DNA of 64,000 nucleotides from Bacteriovorax sp. Seq25_V (GCF_000447795.1 NZ_AUNI01000019.1:62001-126000); one strand, 5' to 3'; shown: positions 43,647 to 52,750, numbered from the stretch's first letter. The notes: generated by a model from the letters alone, not told the origin. Translations and numbers: made by a program.

Positions 43647-43794
43647 TTTTTACAGACTATTCGTTAATAGAACTAATATATTATTTAAAGAATATTAAAG
43701 TTTCTTAGAAATAGGCATGTTAGAAAATTTTATTTGACTACTGTAAATACACAAAAGTATTGTCTCCTCAATAATAATTCAAAGGGGGAGATTG

Positions 43795-44490
43795 ATGAAG
43801 TATTTACTATCAGTATTCATGTTAGCTCAACTAACTTTTGCCAATGTCAGCGTGACAAAAATTGCTGTTAACGAAAACAATGATCCTTATTTTGAAATTT
43901 CAGAAATCCAAGTAAAAGAACTTCCACCGTTAAAAGCAAATCATGAAGCTCTTGATGAACAGAAAGTGGATTTAAAACAAATCGCGATGGTTATTGACGG
44001 TATTATCGCAATAGGAAAGAAAATTTGGCCTATTATCGAAGCTGGGAAGCCAGTGGTAGATGTAAATATGGGACAAGGTGTTTCAGTAATTCCATTTAAA
44101 AAGGGAGATGATCTTAATGCCACATTTATGGATATGGAAAATTGGTCTGCTCCAGTAGCAAAAAGATACAATGTTACATATAAGAATGGTTTTGGGGCAA
44201 AAGTTATATCTTTTGATTACACTGTAATGTTTCAGCACAGTGGTTCTTTTGAAGAGAAAGGAAAGTATCTTACAGGTGTTAATGTTGTTGCTTCGAATAT
44301 CTCCGTAGCATGGGGATTCGATTTTAAGGCATCTACTGAGCTTGTTCAAATTTCAAACCACGGGAGTAAAGACGATCGTGTAGCAGGTGCAACTTTTAAA
44401 GTTAATTACACAGCTGAAACTGTTTTCAAAACTATTCAATCTGCTGACACTTTCCATGTCATGGGTAATGGTCAATTAACAAAGTATTAG
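43795..44490 (+). CDS. Secreted protein of unknown function
   Basis: The start is ATG 43795, with GGGGGAG two to eight bases before it. A TTG at 43792 is an artefact of the open frame. The 231-residue product has a signal peptide (MKYLLSVFMLAQLTFA) and no cysteine. A hydrophobic segment near residue 65 (IAMVIDGIIAIGKKIWPII) is followed by a beta-sandwich-like region with a repeated pattern (YNVTYKNGFGAKVISFDYTV, VNVVASNISVAWGFDF, FKVNYTAETVFK). The layout recalls small surface or pore-forming-type secreted proteins, but I recognise no family. A clear terminator follows. Confidence 0.78.
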   Translation: MKYLLSVFMLAQLTFANVSVTKIAVNENNDPYFEISEIQVKELPPLKANHEALDEQKVDLKQIAMVIDGIIAIGKKIWPIIEAGKPVVDVNMGQGVSVIPFKKGDDLNATFMDMENWSAPVAKRYNVTYKNGFGAKVISFDYTVMFQHSGSFEEKGKYLTGVNVVASNISVAWGFDFKASTELVQISNHGSKDDRVAGATFKVNYTAETVFKTIQSADTFHVMGNGQLTKY

Positions 44491-44504: not shown

Positions 44505-44530
44505 AGGCCTACTTTTCGTAGGCCTTTTTA
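44505..44530 (+). terminator. Rho-independent terminator
   Basis: AGGCCTAC and GTAGGCCT form a perfect 8-bp stem with loop TTTTC, followed by TTTTATTC. The 175 bases from here to the GTG at 44706 hold no recognisable gene. Confidence 0.85.
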
Positions 44531-44705: not shown

Positions 44706-46082
44706 GTGCATTTTAAAAAGTTGCCCGCTATTGCTGTTCTAGCTACTAGTTATCTTTGTTCGTTTAATTCGTCTGCAAAAGACTTAGAAAAATTTTATTT
44801 TAAGAATTTCTCTTATGAGGAGTATGTTTACTCTGATTCAAAGAAAACTGAAGTTGGAGATACTGTAGAACTTGAATTAGATGTTGCTTACGATTATTCA
44901 GAAAACACGAAATTCACCCTTGGTTTTGAAACATATCCAGAAGACAATCGCTTTAATAATAAGACGTCAAAATTTGAATTAGTAGCTTCTCATAAATATG
45001 AAAATGTTAAATTTTCAATCGATGGCGAACTTCAAACTAATGAACCAGATAATAATTCTGGTGGCACTAGTATAGGTGCTGATCTTGACTCAGACAAAAC
45101 TTATATTAAATATAATATGAGTAAATCAGTTGCTCTTACTTACTTTCCATTTAACTTTGATGGTGAAGTCGGTGAAGAATTCAATACTTGGGATGTGACA
45201 AGAATTTACTACTTTGAAGGAACTCCTAGTTCTATTAGTGGAACAATTAGTGATGATGAGAAAGTCGCGCAAAAAACAATCCCTGGACTCGTTTTAAGCT
45301 ATGAGGGTGAAAATGGTTTAGATGTATACGCAGGGATTGGAAAAGCAACATTCTTATATCCTGGTAACGCGAACTTTAATCTTAGTTCAAACCCAAATGC
45401 GACGAGATGGGAGAGAAAAGAGACAACTGGGATTAAGGCCGGAATTTCTTATGCGCAAGCAAAAGAGATGAAAGTAGAATTGAAATACGTAACTCAAGAT
45501 AAGTCTGAACAAACTGGTGCTCTTTTACAGTCTGCTGCTTCTGTTTATGGATTATTTAATATTTTGGATTCATTTCTGTTTGAAGCAGAAGTTACTTACT
45601 CAAAAGCTGGAAAAGCACCTTGGAATGTAAATAGATCTAAGAGCTGGTTCGACAAGACTGCTCCTTTTCAACCAATCTATGCTGATAGCACAAATAAACT
45701 TCAAGACTGGATTGGGAAGAGTGATACTGCGTATGCAGTAAAACTTGCATATATGCTTGATGATGTAACACCATATGTTTTTTATCGTTATCAAGGTGAA
45801 CACTTCATCTTTAGAGAAAGAGAGTCTGCACATATCTTAAGAACTGCAGATGACTCTAAGTCACACGGTGGTCTAAGTCGTTTTGGTCTTGGGAGTTACT
45901 TTAAAAAAGGTAAGTTCACAATCAATCCTGAGTTTGAAATGTTAAGAGCGAAGAATCCTGTTTTTAGTAGCAGTTCTGACGTTCGTGATGATCGTCTTTT
46001 AAGTACATTTAAAAAGAATGATTATCTACTTTATATAAAAGTTGATTACAACTTTGATGGATCTAAATTATTTGCACTTTAA
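44706..46082 (+). CDS. Outer-membrane beta-barrel protein
   Basis: Start is GTG 44706 with AAGGGG upstream. The 458-residue protein has a signal peptide (LPAIAVLATSYLCSFNSSA) and alternating amphipathic strands throughout, e.g. TVELELDVAYDYSENTKFTL, KFELVASHKYENVKFSID, KLAYMLDDVTPYVFYRYQ and DYLLYIKVDYNF, consistent with a porin-like barrel of roughly 16-18 strands. The C-terminus ends FAL, without the terminal aromatic residue most barrels carry. It is first in an operon with the lipoprotein at 46096 (13-base gap) and the nuclease at 48084 (11-base gap), so it may import the products of that nuclease. Substrate unproven. Confidence 0.82.
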   Translation: MHFKKLPAIAVLATSYLCSFNSSAKDLEKFYFKNFSYEEYVYSDSKKTEVGDTVELELDVAYDYSENTKFTLGFETYPEDNRFNNKTSKFELVASHKYENVKFSIDGELQTNEPDNNSGGTSIGADLDSDKTYIKYNMSKSVALTYFPFNFDGEVGEEFNTWDVTRIYYFEGTPSSISGTISDDEKVAQKTIPGLVLSYEGENGLDVYAGIGKATFLYPGNANFNLSSNPNATRWERKETTGIKAGISYAQAKEMKVELKYVTQDKSEQTGALLQSAASVYGLFNILDSFLFEAEVTYSKAGKAPWNVNRSKSWFDKTAPFQPIYADSTNKLQDWIGKSDTAYAVKLAYMLDDVTPYVFYRYQGEHFIFRERESAHILRTADDSKSHGGLSRFGLGSYFKKGKFTINPEFEMLRAKNPVFSSSSDVRDDRLLSTFKKNDYLLYIKVDYNFDGSKLFAL

Positions 46083-46095
46083 TATTGGGGAACCT

Positions 46096-48072
46096 ATGAG
46101 GCCACTACTTTTAGTTTTTGTTTTATCACTTTCATCACTATCTTTTGTTTCTTGTTCGAAAGAAGAGAGTGTTGAAGTTACGAATCTTGCTCCTGAGTTT
46201 TCTGAGCTACAGAGCATGGCGTTTAATCTTGAAGAGGATGTGGCCAAAGGCAGAATTCTTTCAAACTCTACTGAAGCCGACAGAAATATCATCATCTCAG
46301 CCGTGAAAAGATCAAAGACAGCTGTTTTGGCCTTAAATAAAGATTCAACCAATATTAGTTACATTAAAGTTCTTGTTGAATCTGTGCGCGAGTATCAAAG
46401 TGCTTCTAAAATTACACGTGATGAAGCGAAGCTTGATAGATACTTTAAAAGAGTCGCCGAGCTAGCATCTAAATATGCCCAAATTGCAGGTCTTGATATT
46501 GCTTCTCTTAAATGGAAACAATTTGAGTATTCATTTAGCGATGGAATTGCTCCTTTTGGATCATATGCAGATGCTGCAAACTGGACAACTGACTGGCAAC
46601 AAGACATGCCCCTTGCTCTTATAAAAGGAACTGGCACTGATGCTTGGTTAATCTCTCCTGAATTTGATCTAACCGATGTTGATAGCATCTCGCTTGAAAT
46701 CAATCATATGTTTGGAGTTGATAGCAACGCTCGTGAAACAGGGGTTGAGTTTAATAGAGCTAAATTCATTAGAGATGTTTACAATCTTGTCGTTTCTACT
46801 GATTACCAAGGTGGTGACCCTTCGAGTGCAAAGTGGACAAAGATTTCAATGGGGAAGCTTCCTACTTCGGTTGATTTTCATAAGGTCAAAAGTGGTGAGA
46901 TTTCTCTCGATCGTTTTGCTGGAGAAAAAATTACAATTGCATTTCACTATGCTGCCGATTCAAAAAAAGTTGGTCGTCATTACCTAAACTGGAATATTTA
47001 CGATTTCAAATTATCTGCAAATAAATCTATCGGCCCAGTTGAAAGCCGTCCAAGTTCAATTCTTACTGATAAGGTTCAAGGTAGCCTTGGAAACTTTCAG
47101 TCGGTATCAAGCTCTGCAGAGGGCGCCCAGTGGACATATGGTAGTGGTGGAGGAAATGAATTCGCTGTTATTAATAGTAATGGTACAGACTCAACTACAT
47201 GGCTAATCTCATCGAAGTATGACTTATCCAAAGTTGAGAGTGCGTCACTCGTTATTAGAGAAATTGCAAAAAATATCGACTTAAGAAATGCCAAGATTCT
47301 TATTTCTAGTGACTATAGTGGTGGTAATCCTACTGAAGCTTCATGGGAGTCGATCAACCATAAGAGTGCAAAAGACGTTCTTGATGATAGCTGGAATGAT
47401 TTAACGGCAGGTCCATTTGATCTTAAAGATTATATCGGTAAAGAAATTGTTGTTGCTTTTGAATTTACTCAAAAGGCAAATGATAGATCAACTTGGGAAA
47501 TTATCTCTCTTGATTTCATTGGAAAGGGAGAGGCAATTTCAAGGACTAAGTTAAGTCTAAGTTATGAGACACCAAAACCTATCGAAGTCGGTGAAACTGT
47601 CAAAGAAGTTAACCTCGCTGAAGTATTCGCTGATCTCTCGCAAGTTACAGTTAGTGGTACTCCTGCAGACTTCTTTGTAAACAAAAGAGGTGATTCTCAA
47701 AATATTCGTATCTCAGGATATAAGAATAAGAATGATGGTGTAATTCGTTTGATTTCACCAAAGTTTGATCTTTCATCTGTAGATGCAGATTCTATCTTAG
47801 TAGAACACTCATTAAACTTTGCAAAAGGTATTGATCCAAAAGAGCTTGTAAAGATTTATGTAAGAGAAGCAGGAAAAGATGAGACATTAACTCAATTATC
47901 TTTTGATGACTTTCCACTTGGAAATTCTTTTAATGTTGTGAAATCTGGTCCAGCTGCAATTCCTGCTGAGTTGGGTGGAAGACAAATCGAAGTTGTTTTT
48001 GAGTATAAATCATTCGATCCTAACTTTACGACATGGGATATCTATAATCTTCAATTGAAGAAAATGAAATAG
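46096..48072 (+). CDS. Lipoprotein with three choice-of-anchor-J-like repeats
   Basis: ATG 46096, with GGGGA before it, begins a lipoprotein signal (MRPLLLVFVLSLSSLSFVSC, Cys20); the longer frame from 46042 is within the previous gene. The 658-residue protein contains three copies of a jelly-roll module. Each has the motif WLISPEFDLTDVDSISLEI, TWLISSKYDLSKVESASLVI or IRLISPKFDLSSVDADSILV, and later IVVAFEF- or IEVVFEY-type strands. Two copies also have VSTDYQGGDPSSAKWTKIS and ISSDYSGGNPTEASWESIN. This is the choice-of-anchor J/cleaved-adhesin fold known for binding carbohydrates or host molecules. It lies between a barrel and a nuclease gene and may dock substrate on the surface. Confidence 0.82.
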   Translation: MRPLLLVFVLSLSSLSFVSCSKEESVEVTNLAPEFSELQSMAFNLEEDVAKGRILSNSTEADRNIIISAVKRSKTAVLALNKDSTNISYIKVLVESVREYQSASKITRDEAKLDRYFKRVAELASKYAQIAGLDIASLKWKQFEYSFSDGIAPFGSYADAANWTTDWQQDMPLALIKGTGTDAWLISPEFDLTDVDSISLEINHMFGVDSNARETGVEFNRAKFIRDVYNLVVSTDYQGGDPSSAKWTKISMGKLPTSVDFHKVKSGEISLDRFAGEKITIAFHYAADSKKVGRHYLNWNIYDFKLSANKSIGPVESRPSSILTDKVQGSLGNFQSVSSSAEGAQWTYGSGGGNEFAVINSNGTDSTTWLISSKYDLSKVESASLVIREIAKNIDLRNAKILISSDYSGGNPTEASWESINHKSAKDVLDDSWNDLTAGPFDLKDYIGKEIVVAFEFTQKANDRSTWEIISLDFIGKGEAISRTKLSLSYETPKPIEVGETVKEVNLAEVFADLSQVTVSGTPADFFVNKRGDSQNIRISGYKNKNDGVIRLISPKFDLSSVDADSILVEHSLNFAKGIDPKELVKIYVREAGKDETLTQLSFDDFPLGNSFNVVKSGPAAIPAELGGRQIEVVFEYKSFDPNFTTWDIYNLQLKKMK

Positions 48073-48083
48073 GTTTGGTTACT

Positions 48084-50609
48084 ATGAAATATACTATTAG
48101 TTTACTTTTTATATCGCTCTTCTTCACTTCTTGCTCAGACAAGGGGTATCGTTTACAAAATGATGAGGTGGCTATCACTGCAAGTGCAAGTATGATGCAG
48201 TCTTCAAAAATTGGAAATCTTGTTACGAGTGCGATGAAGGAAACTAATGGGCTCGATATGGTTCTCTTTCCGAGTGAACTTCTTCCTCAAGATATATTTT
48301 CTCTTGTTTACCCAGGAATGACAGCAACTGAGATTACTGAGTTTGTTAACGAATTTTCATCTGGAGTTAAAGACCAATTTCGTGTTGGTGTGATGAGTGG
48401 TAAAGATATCAAGGCCCTTATTGCAGCTCGTGCAAAAGAAAAATATTACGCTGCTTTTCAGGTTGCGGGAATCAAATATCATATTCATTATGTTGGTGGA
48501 ATGGCCCGTTTTGAAAACTTTGAGGGAGACGAAGGTGTCCGCCTTGAAGACAAAAGAAAGTACAGAATTGCAGTCAGTGAGTACTTCTATTTTAGTGGGA
48601 CAACATTCCCAAGTTATAAGTACAAAAATGGCATGAACCGCACCCTTCGCGAAACTGGTGAGACGATCTCAGTAAAAGAATCGCTTACAAAATACCTTAG
48701 GAATGTTGAGTTTCTTCCATATCTTGACGAAATAAGAGCTCTTGTAACTACTAAGATCATAGGTGATGTCGGATTTAAAACAATCCCTCAAATCCAAGGA
48801 GAAACTCATCTATCTCCTTATTATGGAAACAAAGTAAAGACAACAGGTATAATTACGGCCGTTGCTGCTGCAGACTGGTTTCCTGGTGGAACTGATTTAT
48901 ATATTCAAACTAAAACTCCTGATGCTAATCCAAAAACATCGGAAGCAGTTTTCGTTCATCTCGATAGCGAATCACTTGTTTTAGATATTGGTGATGAGAT
49001 TGAATTATCAGGTGTGGTTTACGAGGATATGACAACTTCAGGTCTGTCGCTAACTTCCATAAAAGAAGTTTCTTCTTTAAAAATTATTTCAAAGGACAAT
49101 CTCCTACCGGCCCCTGTCAAACTTGGACATGGGGGACTTGAAATTCCTTCGAAGCACTTTTCTACTTTCATTGGAAACTTAAACGATAAGAAAACTTTAA
49201 ACCTTGATGATGCCATTGATTTTTATGAGTCGCTAGAGGGAATGAGAATCAATTTCAATTCTCCTCGTGTTGTTGGATTTAGAGGTGGAAATGAAGAGTT
49301 TGAGGAGTTAAGTGCTAAAGGGCATCTTACTCTCTACGTTAAAGTTGATGGTGATCAACAACTTGTTAATGAGACTCCAGACGGTGGAGTAATTGTTGAT
49401 GAAATAAACGATCTTCATAATCCAGATATTTTACAAATCATATCAAGTCACCTTTCGACTGGTATTCCTATCGATTACTACTATCAAGTTGGACAAACTA
49501 TTGAAGGCCAGATTGAAGGGGTACTTACATATAGTAAAAACCTTTTTGGAGGTGGAGAATTCGCTGTAGTTATCCCTCAGAAACAAAACACTCTAACGAC
49601 CCTGGTATCTACTGAAGCTCCACGCACACAGATGGTTCCACTTGAAAAAAGACCAATTGCTCCTTTTGATAATGAAGATGATGCTCTAACTGTTGCTACT
49701 TATAATGTTGAAAACCTAGCAGGTAATCAACAGCGAAGAATCGATGAGATTGGAAAATCTATTCGCGTAAACCTTAAATGTCCAGATATTGTTAATCTTG
49801 TTGAGATACAAGACTTTAATGGAATTGATTTTAAAGGTGGTGCATCGGCGGTAAAGACACTTCAAAAGCTCATAGCAGCAACAGGATGTAGTGGTGTTGA
49901 TTATGGTTATATTAATATCGATCCAATAGAAAATGGTGAGGGGGGACAACCTGGTGGAAATATCCGTGTTGCCATGATCTATAATAAGAAAAAGCTTGGT
50001 TTTAGTGAAAGAAAGATGCCGACTTCAATTTCTGATACATACGTATTAGAGAATGGATCAATTAATTATAATCCTGGTCGTGTTTATGCTAACGATGATG
50101 CTTTCGAGCACACAAGAAGAAGTATCGTTGCTGAATTCTCTTATAAAGGAAAAAGATTATATGTAGTTGGTAACCACTTTAACTCCAAACTTGGAGACTC
50201 CGATCGAATGGGTGCAGTACAACCCTTTGTCTCTGGATCAGAAACCAAACGTGTAAAGCTTGCAAAGATGATCAATAATTTTGTTCAAAGAATTCAGCAC
50301 TACGATTCTGAAGCTATCGTTTTTGTTATGGGTGACTTTAATGCTAATCTCAACGAAAACTCAATGAAGGTTCTCGCTGGAGATCATATGACAAACCTTG
50401 TTGGCGTGGATGCTCTGGTTGACTTTAATGATCGTTACACAACGAATCATAACGGAACTTCTCAGCCTCTTGATTATATTTTTGCAACCAATAATGTTTT
50501 CAAATACGAACTTCAGGTAGCTCCTCTGCATATCAATTCAGACTATATGGGACGATTGTCTGATCATGATCCTGTGGTTGCAAAAATCAAAGTTAAACTG
50601 GACCAGTAA
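48084..50609 (+). CDS. Lipoprotein nuclease: 5'-nucleotidase-C-like, OB and EEP domains
   Basis: ATG 48084 begins a lipoprotein signal (LLFISLFFTSC, Cys17); the frame is open from 48075. The 841-residue protein has three parts. Residues ~25-215 resemble a 5'-nucleotidase C-terminal domain (KIGNLVTSAMKETNGLDMVL, VMSGKDIKALI, YRIAVSEYFYFSG). Residues ~240-335 are an OB-fold like YhcR-type nucleases (VKTTGIITAVAAADWFPGGT). From ~535 it is an EEP nuclease: TVATYNVENLAG, DIVNLVEIQD, YVVGNHFNSK, FVMGDFNANL, DYIFATNN and SDHDPVVAKI. This suits an extracellular DNase/nucleotidase. The final codons CTG GAC CAG TAA come from the left end of the IS, so the native terminus was probably altered. Confidence 0.87.
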   Translation: MKYTISLLFISLFFTSCSDKGYRLQNDEVAITASASMMQSSKIGNLVTSAMKETNGLDMVLFPSELLPQDIFSLVYPGMTATEITEFVNEFSSGVKDQFRVGVMSGKDIKALIAARAKEKYYAAFQVAGIKYHIHYVGGMARFENFEGDEGVRLEDKRKYRIAVSEYFYFSGTTFPSYKYKNGMNRTLRETGETISVKESLTKYLRNVEFLPYLDEIRALVTTKIIGDVGFKTIPQIQGETHLSPYYGNKVKTTGIITAVAAADWFPGGTDLYIQTKTPDANPKTSEAVFVHLDSESLVLDIGDEIELSGVVYEDMTTSGLSLTSIKEVSSLKIISKDNLLPAPVKLGHGGLEIPSKHFSTFIGNLNDKKTLNLDDAIDFYESLEGMRINFNSPRVVGFRGGNEEFEELSAKGHLTLYVKVDGDQQLVNETPDGGVIVDEINDLHNPDILQIISSHLSTGIPIDYYYQVGQTIEGQIEGVLTYSKNLFGGGEFAVVIPQKQNTLTTLVSTEAPRTQMVPLEKRPIAPFDNEDDALTVATYNVENLAGNQQRRIDEIGKSIRVNLKCPDIVNLVEIQDFNGIDFKGGASAVKTLQKLIAATGCSGVDYGYINIDPIENGEGGQPGGNIRVAMIYNKKKLGFSERKMPTSISDTYVLENGSINYNPGRVYANDDAFEHTRRSIVAEFSYKGKRLYVVGNHFNSKLGDSDRMGAVQPFVSGSETKRVKLAKMINNFVQRIQHYDSEAIVFVMGDFNANLNENSMKVLAGDHMTNLVGVDALVDFNDRYTTNHNGTSQPLDYIFATNNVFKYELQVAPLHINSDYMGRLSDHDPVVAKIKVKLDQ

Positions 50610-51637
50610 ATTGGGGATGTCATATCCCCTTTGTAAATTCAATTTTTGAACTAATCAACAATTTGCTTCATTAAAATTAGGTGTTTAGCGTTCTTGTATC
50701 CTGGCATGGCCTGCATTAAACATGTCATGATATACCGCTGCCCAAATTTTGACTGTCACTCAACAACCAAAAACAAACATATTTCAAAGGATGGCTTCTT
50801 TTTTAGACGGAATGATTCAAGAATGATTCAACGTTTTGTCTGTAAGACCTGTGGGAAAAAATTCTCTCGCGCAACCTCAACGCTTGAGAAGTAATCAGAA
50901 AAAAAGAAGGATCAATCGAAGACTTTTTCTTGATCTCGCTACAAATAATACAATGAGATCATGTGCACGAAAGTATAAGGTTAACTACAAAACGATTTAT
51001 AATCGAATTAATTATTTTGCAATCAAGGCCAGAAAGAATAATAACAAATTTCTCAAAAAGCTAGAGAAGTCAAAAGTTCAAGCAATGCAATTTGATGATT
51101 TAATTACAGTCGAGCATACAAAGATGAAGCCTCTTACAATTACAATAGCAGTCGATAGAAAACGCCGGTACATCCTCGCTGCAGAAGTTTCAAGGATTCC
51201 CGCCTTTGGTTTACTAGCTGAGAAATCACGAAGAAATATGGATATCGAAAAAGTGAACATGAAAGAGGATTAGAAAATGTATTTGAAAAAATTAAAAATG
51301 TTGTTGCTAAAGACGCAAGAATACAATCAGATGAGCATCAAGCTTATCCAAAATTTGTGAGTAAATATTTTCCAGAAGCAGAGTATAGAAGATATAAAGG
51401 AGGTAGAGGTTGTATCGCCGGTCAAGGAGAACTTAAGAAACTTCGATTTGATCCTCTTTTTACACTAAACCACACTTGCGCGATGTTTAGATCAAATATA
51501 AATCGACTTGCGAGCGAGAAAAAGTTGGTGCACAACAAAGAGAATCGACATGCTTCAAAGGCATGTCGATATTTTTATAAGTTACTTTAATTTGATTTAT
51601 CTGAAAGGGTCTCTCCCCATTTAACTGGAGCAGTTTA
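50594..51637 (+). mobile_element. Decayed IS1-like insertion sequence
   Basis: The ~1.04-kb element has imperfect terminal inverted repeats. The left is TAAACTGGACCAGTAAATTG followed by GGGA. The right, read in reverse, is TAAACTGCTCCAGTTAAATG followed by GGGA. It contains one transposase region in broken frames. Its left end forms the stop codon of the nuclease gene and its right end the stop of the barrel gene on the opposite strand. The same ends occur on the two 156-bp elements at 21987-22142 and 52935-53090. No clear target-site duplication is visible at the junctions. Confidence 0.82.
50727..51624 (+). pseudogene. Frameshifted transposase of an IS1-like element
   Basis: Conceptual joining of frames gives an InsA-like zinc finger (YRCPNFDCHSTTKN, RFVCKTCGKKFSR), a helical linker (CARKYKVNYKTIYNRINYF), and a DDE-type catalytic part. 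The catalytic part includes TITIAVDRKRRYILAAEVSR, RIQSDEHQAYPKF and a C-terminal block WCTTKRIDMLQRHVDIFISY, similar in order to IS1 InsB. The frame breaks near 50890, again near 51235, and at 51510-51517 where GCGA is tandemly duplicated. No classic A6C slippery site joins these frames, so decay is more likely than programmed frameshifting. The final frame stops inside the right inverted repeat. Confidence 0.8.
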
Positions 51638-52750
51638 GAACCAGAAAGAGGCCGAAAGATTAGCTCCATAAGCATTATAATCTTCAAGTTCAGTTTTATA
51701 ATCTACGTTTCTGTACTGTCTCTCCCAGATGAGTCCGTAGTTAAGTTGTGCTCTTTGTGCTATCTTATACTGAAATCCTGGGTTAACTTTGTATGAGTAG
51801 TAAGTTGATGTTTTCCCATCGTTGTAGCTACTCTGTCCTTCAATATTTGCATCGTAATTATTTTTATCATGATGTTGTTTTCTAACAAATGCTGCTTCTA
51901 GGTTAATCCCTGTTGCCCACTTATCTGAGATTCTATAAAGATATCCAAGTTGAATTAGGTTGTCGTACTGCTTCTTTGATGTGTATTTGTCGTTTGGATG
52001 TTTTGAAGTGTAAGCAAATACATATTCAAACCATACTTCATATGATTCAGTGTTTTTGTTATAAGCAATATCAAATGCCCAGTCAGCATCTGGATCAATG
52101 TCTCTCCAGTAGTAAAGACCTGCAATTGAATATTGTGTCTCATAGTCTGGAGTGAGATTGAATTGGTACGCAAGACCTCTTTCATTTTTTGAGTTGAATG
52201 TCTTCTCTTGAGTGTATTCAATTGTTGACTTACTGTCTTTTAAATATGGCTTAGATTCATCGTCTCTGTCACGTTTAATTGATTGGCTATTACCAAAGAA
52301 AGTAATATTTTGGTAGTAACCATTTTTTCTTCTTCCTATCTCTAAGTTTGCAAGATATTTTCTATCCTGATCTCTAAAAGAGTGGTTTGTGTTGATTAAG
52401 TAACCACCATCTGTGTACGTGATATCTGAGATACCATAGTGCATTTGGTGGAAACGAATTTTTCCTTTTCCAAAAGTCATTTTGTAGTTTTCGTCGAAAC
52501 GATACATGACAAGTACTTCTTCCATAAGGTCAGTTGATCCATCGATGTCGAGTTTAATCTTTGAAGAGAAATCTTCGTGATTAAAGTAAACTTTTACATC
52601 TGCTGTTCCATAACCGAGACCGATTGAACCGTCTGAACTTTCAACTTTCTCAAGATTTAGTAAATCAAGAGCAACGAAACCTTTGACTTTGAAGTCTGCT
52701 CCAAGAGCACACAATGTCATTAATGAGATGAGAATTGATTTTCTTAACAT
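51635..52750 (-). CDS. Outer-membrane beta-barrel protein
   Basis: The 371-residue protein has a signal peptide (RKSILISLMTLCALGA) and about 16-18 amphipathic strands, e.g. GFVALDLLNLEKV, SIAGLYYWRDIDPDADWAFD, YEVWFEYVFAYTS and YGANLSASFWF. It ends in Phe, the usual outer-membrane assembly signal. The stop TAA is formed by the edge of the IS (51635-51637), directly after that Phe. Ligand unknown; it resembles small porins or LbtU/OprO-like barrels in layout. It is transcribed alone, converging on the IS. Confidence 0.85.
   Translation of the reverse strand: MLRKSILISLMTLCALGADFKVKGFVALDLLNLEKVESSDGSIGLGYGTADVKVYFNHEDFSSKIKLDIDGSTDLMEEVLVMYRFDENYKMTFGKGKIRFHQMHYGISDITYTDGGYLINTNHSFRDQDRKYLANLEIGRRKNGYYQNITFFGNSQSIKRDRDDESKPYLKDSKSTIEYTQEKTFNSKNERGLAYQFNLTPDYETQYSIAGLYYWRDIDPDADWAFDIAYNKNTESYEVWFEYVFAYTSKHPNDKYTSKKQYDNLIQLGYLYRISDKWATGINLEAAFVRKQHHDKNNYDANIEGQSSYNDGKTSTYYSYKVNPGFQYKIAQRAQLNYGLIWERQYRNVDYKTELEDYNAYGANLSASFWF

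Follow-up and report, generated by a model that had tools for sequence, protein, structure and literature searches.

Genes and features at the locus

The window, a 64,000-nucleotide stretch of the genome of Bacteriovorax sp. Seq25_V (GCF_000447795.1 NZ_AUNI01000019.1:62001-126000), carries three co-directional ORFs at positions 44706-46082, 46096-48072 and 48084-50609, which encode a predicted outer-membrane barrel, a lipoprotein with jelly-roll repeats and a multidomain lipoprotein with a nuclease domain. The features of the locus are:

44505..44525, plus strand: terminator-like hairpin with T tail (AGGCCTACTTTTCGTAGGCCT TTTTATT, 8 pairs), 3' of the upstream gene
44706..46082, plus strand: predicted porin-type outer-membrane beta barrel of 458 aa with a signal peptide, assigned to no Pfam family
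46096..48072, plus strand: 658-aa lipoprotein with three jelly-roll repeats of the choice-of-anchor-J (DUF5017-like) kind
46516..47085, plus strand: J repeat 1, residues ~141-330 (DUF5017 match at 227-312)
47080..47535, plus strand: J repeat 2, residues ~329-480 (best choice_anch_J match at 331-469)
47566..48069, plus strand: J repeat 3, residues ~491-658
48084..50609, plus strand: predicted multidomain nuclease lipoprotein, 841 aa (ATG at 48084, TTG at 48075 as alternative start; Cys17 invariant)
48183..48710, plus strand: lone 5'-nucleotidase C-terminal-like domain, residues ~34-209, ligand motifs lost
48783..49583, plus strand: putative OB-fold region plus the beta-rich part that follows it, residues ~234-500, common to 9sf9 and ExeM-like nucleases
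49674..50591, plus strand: EEP (DNase I/TDP2-type) catalytic domain

As an earlier reading made from the sequence alone had described, the genes are separated by gaps of 13 and 11 nt, counted from the signal-peptide-bearing ATGs at 46096 and 48084. The barrel has an ordinary signal peptide and the middle and last proteins have lipoboxes, which are present in nearly all members and mostly carry Ser or Gly at the +2 residue, a pattern that by the E. coli rule fits sorting of the lipoproteins to the outer membrane. The terminator-like hairpin at 44505-44525 may form the upstream boundary of the operon and separate it from the preceding gene; terminator-like hairpins in total, like promoter-like sites, are no more numerous than in shuffled sequence.

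Upstream, at 43792-44490 and outside the unit, lies a gene for a secreted protein of 232 aa with no Pfam family, relatives of which stand near the cassette in just two other genomes. On the 3' side, a short basic ORF (50836-51273) with a weak match to HTH_Tnp_ISL3 (E 0.07) is possibly an insertion-sequence remnant, judging by this transposase-type helix-turn-helix, and the minus-strand ORF at 51635-52750 encodes a 371-aa protein that resembles an outer-membrane barrel too and matches no Pfam family significantly.

A three-gene cassette inherited as a unit

When each gene was searched separately, all three were found in the identical 23 of 129 genomes at the family level and, at the phylum level, the barrel and the nuclease each in the identical 33 of 369 Bdellovibrionota genomes (17 of 182 genera). 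The number of possible presence sets is ~10^25 for the former and ~10^47 for the latter, counts that ignore shared ancestry, and the identity of the sets is more than chance would give. In every intact locus that we read (about 30, covering three families in the phylum) the three genes lie side by side on a single strand with an unchanging order. The sample comprised 21 family loci (20 and the window) and a further 10 genomes belonging to two other families; in one of these genomes the cassette is split over two contigs. The tree distances of barrel and nuclease are correlated (r 0.88), so that the two proteins co-diverge. The cassette belongs to marine, Bdellovibrio-like bacteria; it is also present in strain Bacteriovorax sp. 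DB6_IX and absent from G048, a well-assembled genome within that genus. The three genes are a true unit, gained and lost only as a set, and are thus probably parts of one machine for the use of extracellular nucleic acid; the sequence-only reading had proposed one functional unit and named conserved synteny as a check on it, and the gene set does occur far outside the strain.

The only genes common to all 21 compared loci are these three. After the three core clusters, the next most widespread gene clusters extend to 7 loci, which belong entirely or largely to one genus; this rules out a larger conserved operon and sets the boundary of the cassette at these three genes. Several neighbourhoods have features of their own. 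A gene for a DTW-domain protein adjoins the operon in locus L088, with related genes in that place in 7 loci; at L088, L089 and L092-L096, all of one genus, similar stretches (CCTAATAA...ACTACTTTTT...GGGGAATTTTTACAAT) lie ~50-180 bases 5' of the barrel gene and are possibly a shared promoter or operator; and in family f3 (L134:13301-16490) the cassette is followed by two genes, one for a second EEP-domain protein (470 aa) and one for a protein of 608 aa that has no Pfam family. Second cassette copies in two MAGs assigned to different genera, at L074 (G038:C153) and L075 (G078:C217), are 99.35% identical over 3402 bp, so that at least one of these small contigs is probably mis-binned and the apparent duplications in G038 and G078 are not to be trusted.

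Beyond the phylum, a scan of 84,980 species with the barrel, which reaches close relatives only, returned 23 loci, all of them from Bdellovibrionota by title where a taxon was named. No relative was found in viral contigs; the plasmids searched contain relatives of the nuclease core at ~29% identity, without the N-terminal domain, and no match to the barrel.

The barrel and the anchor-J lipoprotein

The AlphaFold2 model of the first protein consists mostly of long strands (pLDDT 78, pTM 0.79) and scores equally well against MOMP, maltoporin, OccK and OprP/OprO (VIA Z 15-17, all tied); the protein thus models as a plug-less, porin-type fold of 16-18 strands. The outer-membrane barrel of the sequence-only reading is upheld by this, its closer identity in the weak sense of a porin-type channel in the model. 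The protein has no sequence match to any solved structure. Two other identities were tried and rejected: a TonB-dependent receptor, for which no sequence match was found (Plug and TonB-receptor matches are absent in the 20 barrel members), and a FadL-type barrel, for which sequence support is likewise absent. Chains of FadL are listed by Foldseek and are missing from the best VIA rows. Against PagL, the best E-value is 0.003, in 4 members. Mean sequence identity is 44%, and the 20-member alignment (A1) contains invariant stretches, including ESAHxLR and SHGG, which are located outside the predicted strands and would suggest that the protein recognises a specific ligand or partner.

The middle protein matches the choice-of-anchor J (E 7.7e-15) and DUF5017 (E 1.9e-10) profiles, the former (NF038128) with 55.5 bits and thus above its cut-off of 30, and its three repeats are mutually homologous (E 1e-15, 1e-9 and 5e-9). 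Together with the lipobox, this bears out the description as a J-fold lipoprotein with three repeats. Among the 21 J-protein members, 16 match NF038128 at E 0.001 and none matches DUF5689 (PF18942). It is the most divergent of the three proteins (23% mean identity, 312-734 aa), as would be expected of a surface binding protein; relaxed constraint would look alike.

The predicted nuclease lipoprotein

Residues 234-835 of the third protein, comprising the OB-like region and the EEP domain, align end to end with the solved structure 9sf9 (E 2e-56), and residues 568-820 match ExeM/NucH. Against the full NF033681 (ExeM/NucH) model, the score of 137.7 bits does not reach the curated cut-off of 300, and the OB-like assignment of residues 234-500 rests on the alignment to 9sf9, an OB-fold Pfam match being found in one member only. 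The EEP catalytic residues N541, E574, H698, D751, N753, D827 and H828 are invariant in 29 aligned proteins, and the structural model (pLDDT 84.5) reproduces the EEP fold with Z scores of about 20-23. With a complete EEP active site, the protein is predicted to be an ExeM/NucH-type nuclease that cuts DNA or RNA, and the multidomain nuclease of the sequence-only reading is supported. In one genus (g13, loci L092-L096) the nuclease is 995-1123 aa long: inserted sequence separates the OB region from the EEP domain and, in three cases, the C terminus is extended as well.

The N-terminal part, which had been described as 5'-nucleotidase-C-like, is truly homologous to that domain: 5_nucleotid_C matches residues 34-173 (E 3e-9), PF02872 is found in 20 of the 21 nuclease members, and comparison with 31 true 5'-nucleotidase C domains by hhalign gives 98.1% (E 8e-14). 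In UshA and CD73, this C-terminal domain binds the substrate and a metallophosphatase domain catalyses. Here, the protein starts with the C-type domain and Metallophos has no match in any of the 21 members; at the positions of the NGGxR and PFGN motifs, the aligned segments read FPSELL and EFSSG, with neither the Arg nor the Phe conserved. In the absence of a catalytic domain and of the ligand motifs, dephosphorylation of nucleotides by this protein, as the sequence-only reading had envisaged, is unsupported and was discarded; the domain is the non-catalytic half of the enzyme, standing alone, and probably serves as a docking or ligand module. The idea that F99 and F175 form a base clamp as in CD73 was dropped after alignment with UshA; the two residues are, moreover, not fully invariant. 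The host genome encodes no other 5_nucleotid_C protein.

Comparison with known systems

The closest analogues are little-studied operons of Bacteroidota. In Riemerella anatipestifer, genes for a barrel and for an anchor-J/DUF5689/DUF5017 protein (RA0C_RS04915/04920) form one operon, only this pair having been described, and both are essential for natural transformation (PMC8459023). In four of four Bacteroidota loci that we examined, a small sample taken from plasmid records and thus a supported lead and not a census, a barrel or barrel-sized protein and a DUF5689/anchor-J lipoprotein are accompanied by a secreted nuclease. The nucleases fall into three types unrelated to one another: Bacteroides has EEP, Prevotella has Endonuclease_NS, and Aureibacter and Flammeovirga have EEP and Endonuclease I. 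As in the present cassette, the barrel, an anchor-J/DUF5017 lipoprotein and the nuclease share one operon in Aureibacter pAT2, the Bacteroides finegoldii plasmid and Flammeovirga p1. Anchor-J domains are also fused directly to secreted DNases, namely ExeM/NucH in Ponticoccus and Endonuclease I in Flammeovirga. The recurrence with unrelated nucleases argues for nucleic acid processing as the common theme. The Bdellovibrionota cassette differs in having a plug-less porin and no DUF5689, where Bacteroidota have a barrel of the TonB-dependent-receptor type and DUF5689, a contrast qualified by the fact that some Bacteroidota barrels also lack a Plug match (the 846-aa Prevotella and 906-aa Flammeovirga candidates have no Pfam match, the latter being annotated as a TonB-dependent receptor), and in the fusion of its nuclease to a lone 5'-nucleotidase-C-like domain.

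With ExeM of Shewanella and other NF033681 proteins, the nuclease shares an EEP domain with complete active site and, putatively, the OB-like region; deletion of either of these domains inactivates ExeM (PMC6085458). Unlike ExeM, which has a C-terminal membrane anchor with a rhombosortase site, it is a lipoprotein, and the 5'-nucleotidase-C-like domain takes the place of the lamin-tail domain. The EEP-domain protein of 9sf8/9sf9 in the PDB, for which a literature search turned up no paper, lacks the N-terminal domain in the solved chain. To E. coli UshA, the homology extends over 155 columns of the C-terminal domain; the metallophosphatase domain, the NGGxR arginine and the PFGN phenylalanine are what sets the present protein apart. 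An analogous logic is seen in the PusCD phosphate utilisation system of Flavobacterium, which pairs a surface barrel and lipoprotein with phosphodiesterases; these are phosphate-induced SusCD homologues and not homologous to the present cassette (PMC8115612).

The sequence-only reading had regarded the three-part set as undescribed. This stands in so far as we found no paper on the three-gene cassette, within an incomplete coverage of the literature, and it falls in so far as analogous barrel, DUF5689/anchor-J and nuclease operons exist in Bacteroidota. Nuclease core, J domain and porin fold are of known kinds, and the Bacteroidota operons share the three-part logic; what is new is that the partner is of the porin type, that a predicted surface nuclease carries a lone degenerate 5'-nucleotidase-C domain, and that the genes are strictly co-inherited across Bdellovibrionota.

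A putative route for nucleic-acid scavenging

We interpret the cassette as a candidate surface nucleic-acid scavenging operon, whose products may act as one complex, and give this reading, drawn from sequence, model and analogy, a probability of about 0.5. The anchor-J lipoprotein, exposed on the outer membrane, would bind nucleic acid or hold the complex together, the EEP nuclease would cut DNA and/or RNA into short products, the porin-type barrel would admit these to the periplasm, and the N-terminal 5'-nucleotidase-C-like domain would act as the non-catalytic docking or ligand module. It is supported by the identical presence sets and fixed gene order, the co-divergence of barrel and nuclease, the invariant ExeM/NucH-type catalytic residues, the lipoboxes fitting outer-membrane sorting, the anchor-J-DNase fusions and the Bacteroidota trios, and surface nucleic acid, the substrate first suggested from the sequence, would be the likely one. 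Counting against it are the acidity of the barrel and the J protein (pI about 5), with no obvious DNA-binding surface, the lack of any uptake, phosphatase or PHO gene linked to the operon, and the occurrence of anchor-J domains in adhesins and other exoenzymes too. Also in its favour, the host has a gene for a NupC-type concentrative nucleoside transporter elsewhere in its genome; the nucleotide antiporter TLC gave no match, nor did it in the control genomes. A further point in favour is that Bdellovibrio bacteriovorus, a related predator, is reported to import intact nucleoside monophosphates (Ruby 1985 and Rittenberg 1975, as cited in PMC7529429), and a pathway with no dephosphorylation at the surface would agree with this.

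A more specific version is less likely than not: a dedicated acquisition machine of Bdellovibrionota, in which the surface nuclease and a plug-less, TonB-independent, substrate-specific porin couple cutting to import in one complex and the degenerate nucleotidase-C domain passes the products to the pore.

Among the alternatives to scavenging, the remodelling of extracellular DNA or disposal of prey DNA without uptake (in biofilm detachment, viscosity or competition), with the barrel as partner or anchor instead of conduit, is unlikely but survives best. Biofilm dynamics is the main role of ExeM (PMC6085458), and Bdellovibrio is reported to secrete nucleases during predation (PMC7925074); mere degradation, however, needs no obligatorily co-inherited, dedicated channel with strongly conserved motifs. 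Slightly less probable still is DNA uptake for transformation, with the J protein capturing DNA and the barrel-nuclease pair processing it for entry. A plug-less porin of 16-18 strands is narrow for duplex DNA, an intact surface nuclease would destroy the transforming DNA, and ComEC, which is weakly detected, shows no association with the cassette (ComEC found in 7 of the 23 cassette-bearing genomes and in 41 of the 106 others); these points weigh against the precedent of Riemerella, where such a role was proposed, both genes are essential and the J protein has DUF5017/anchor-J as here (PMC8459023). Another surface phosphodiester as substrate, such as a phospholipid head group or a sugar phosphate, is improbable: the EEP fold also houses sphingomyelinases and sugar phosphatases, and sphingomyelinase and the mannosyl-6-phosphatase BT3783 are among the fold neighbours, but the best family match is an ExeM/NucH DNase with an OB region and J domains are elsewhere fused to true DNases.

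The cassette ties the unexplained Riemerella transformation pair, through anchor-J/DUF5689, to secreted nucleases in three phyla, and thereby makes it testable whether these domains serve generally in handling extracellular DNA. Predatory bacteria live on the macromolecules of their prey; no outer-membrane route by which nucleic-acid products could enter Bdellovibrionota is known to us, and the cassette provides a concrete candidate for one.
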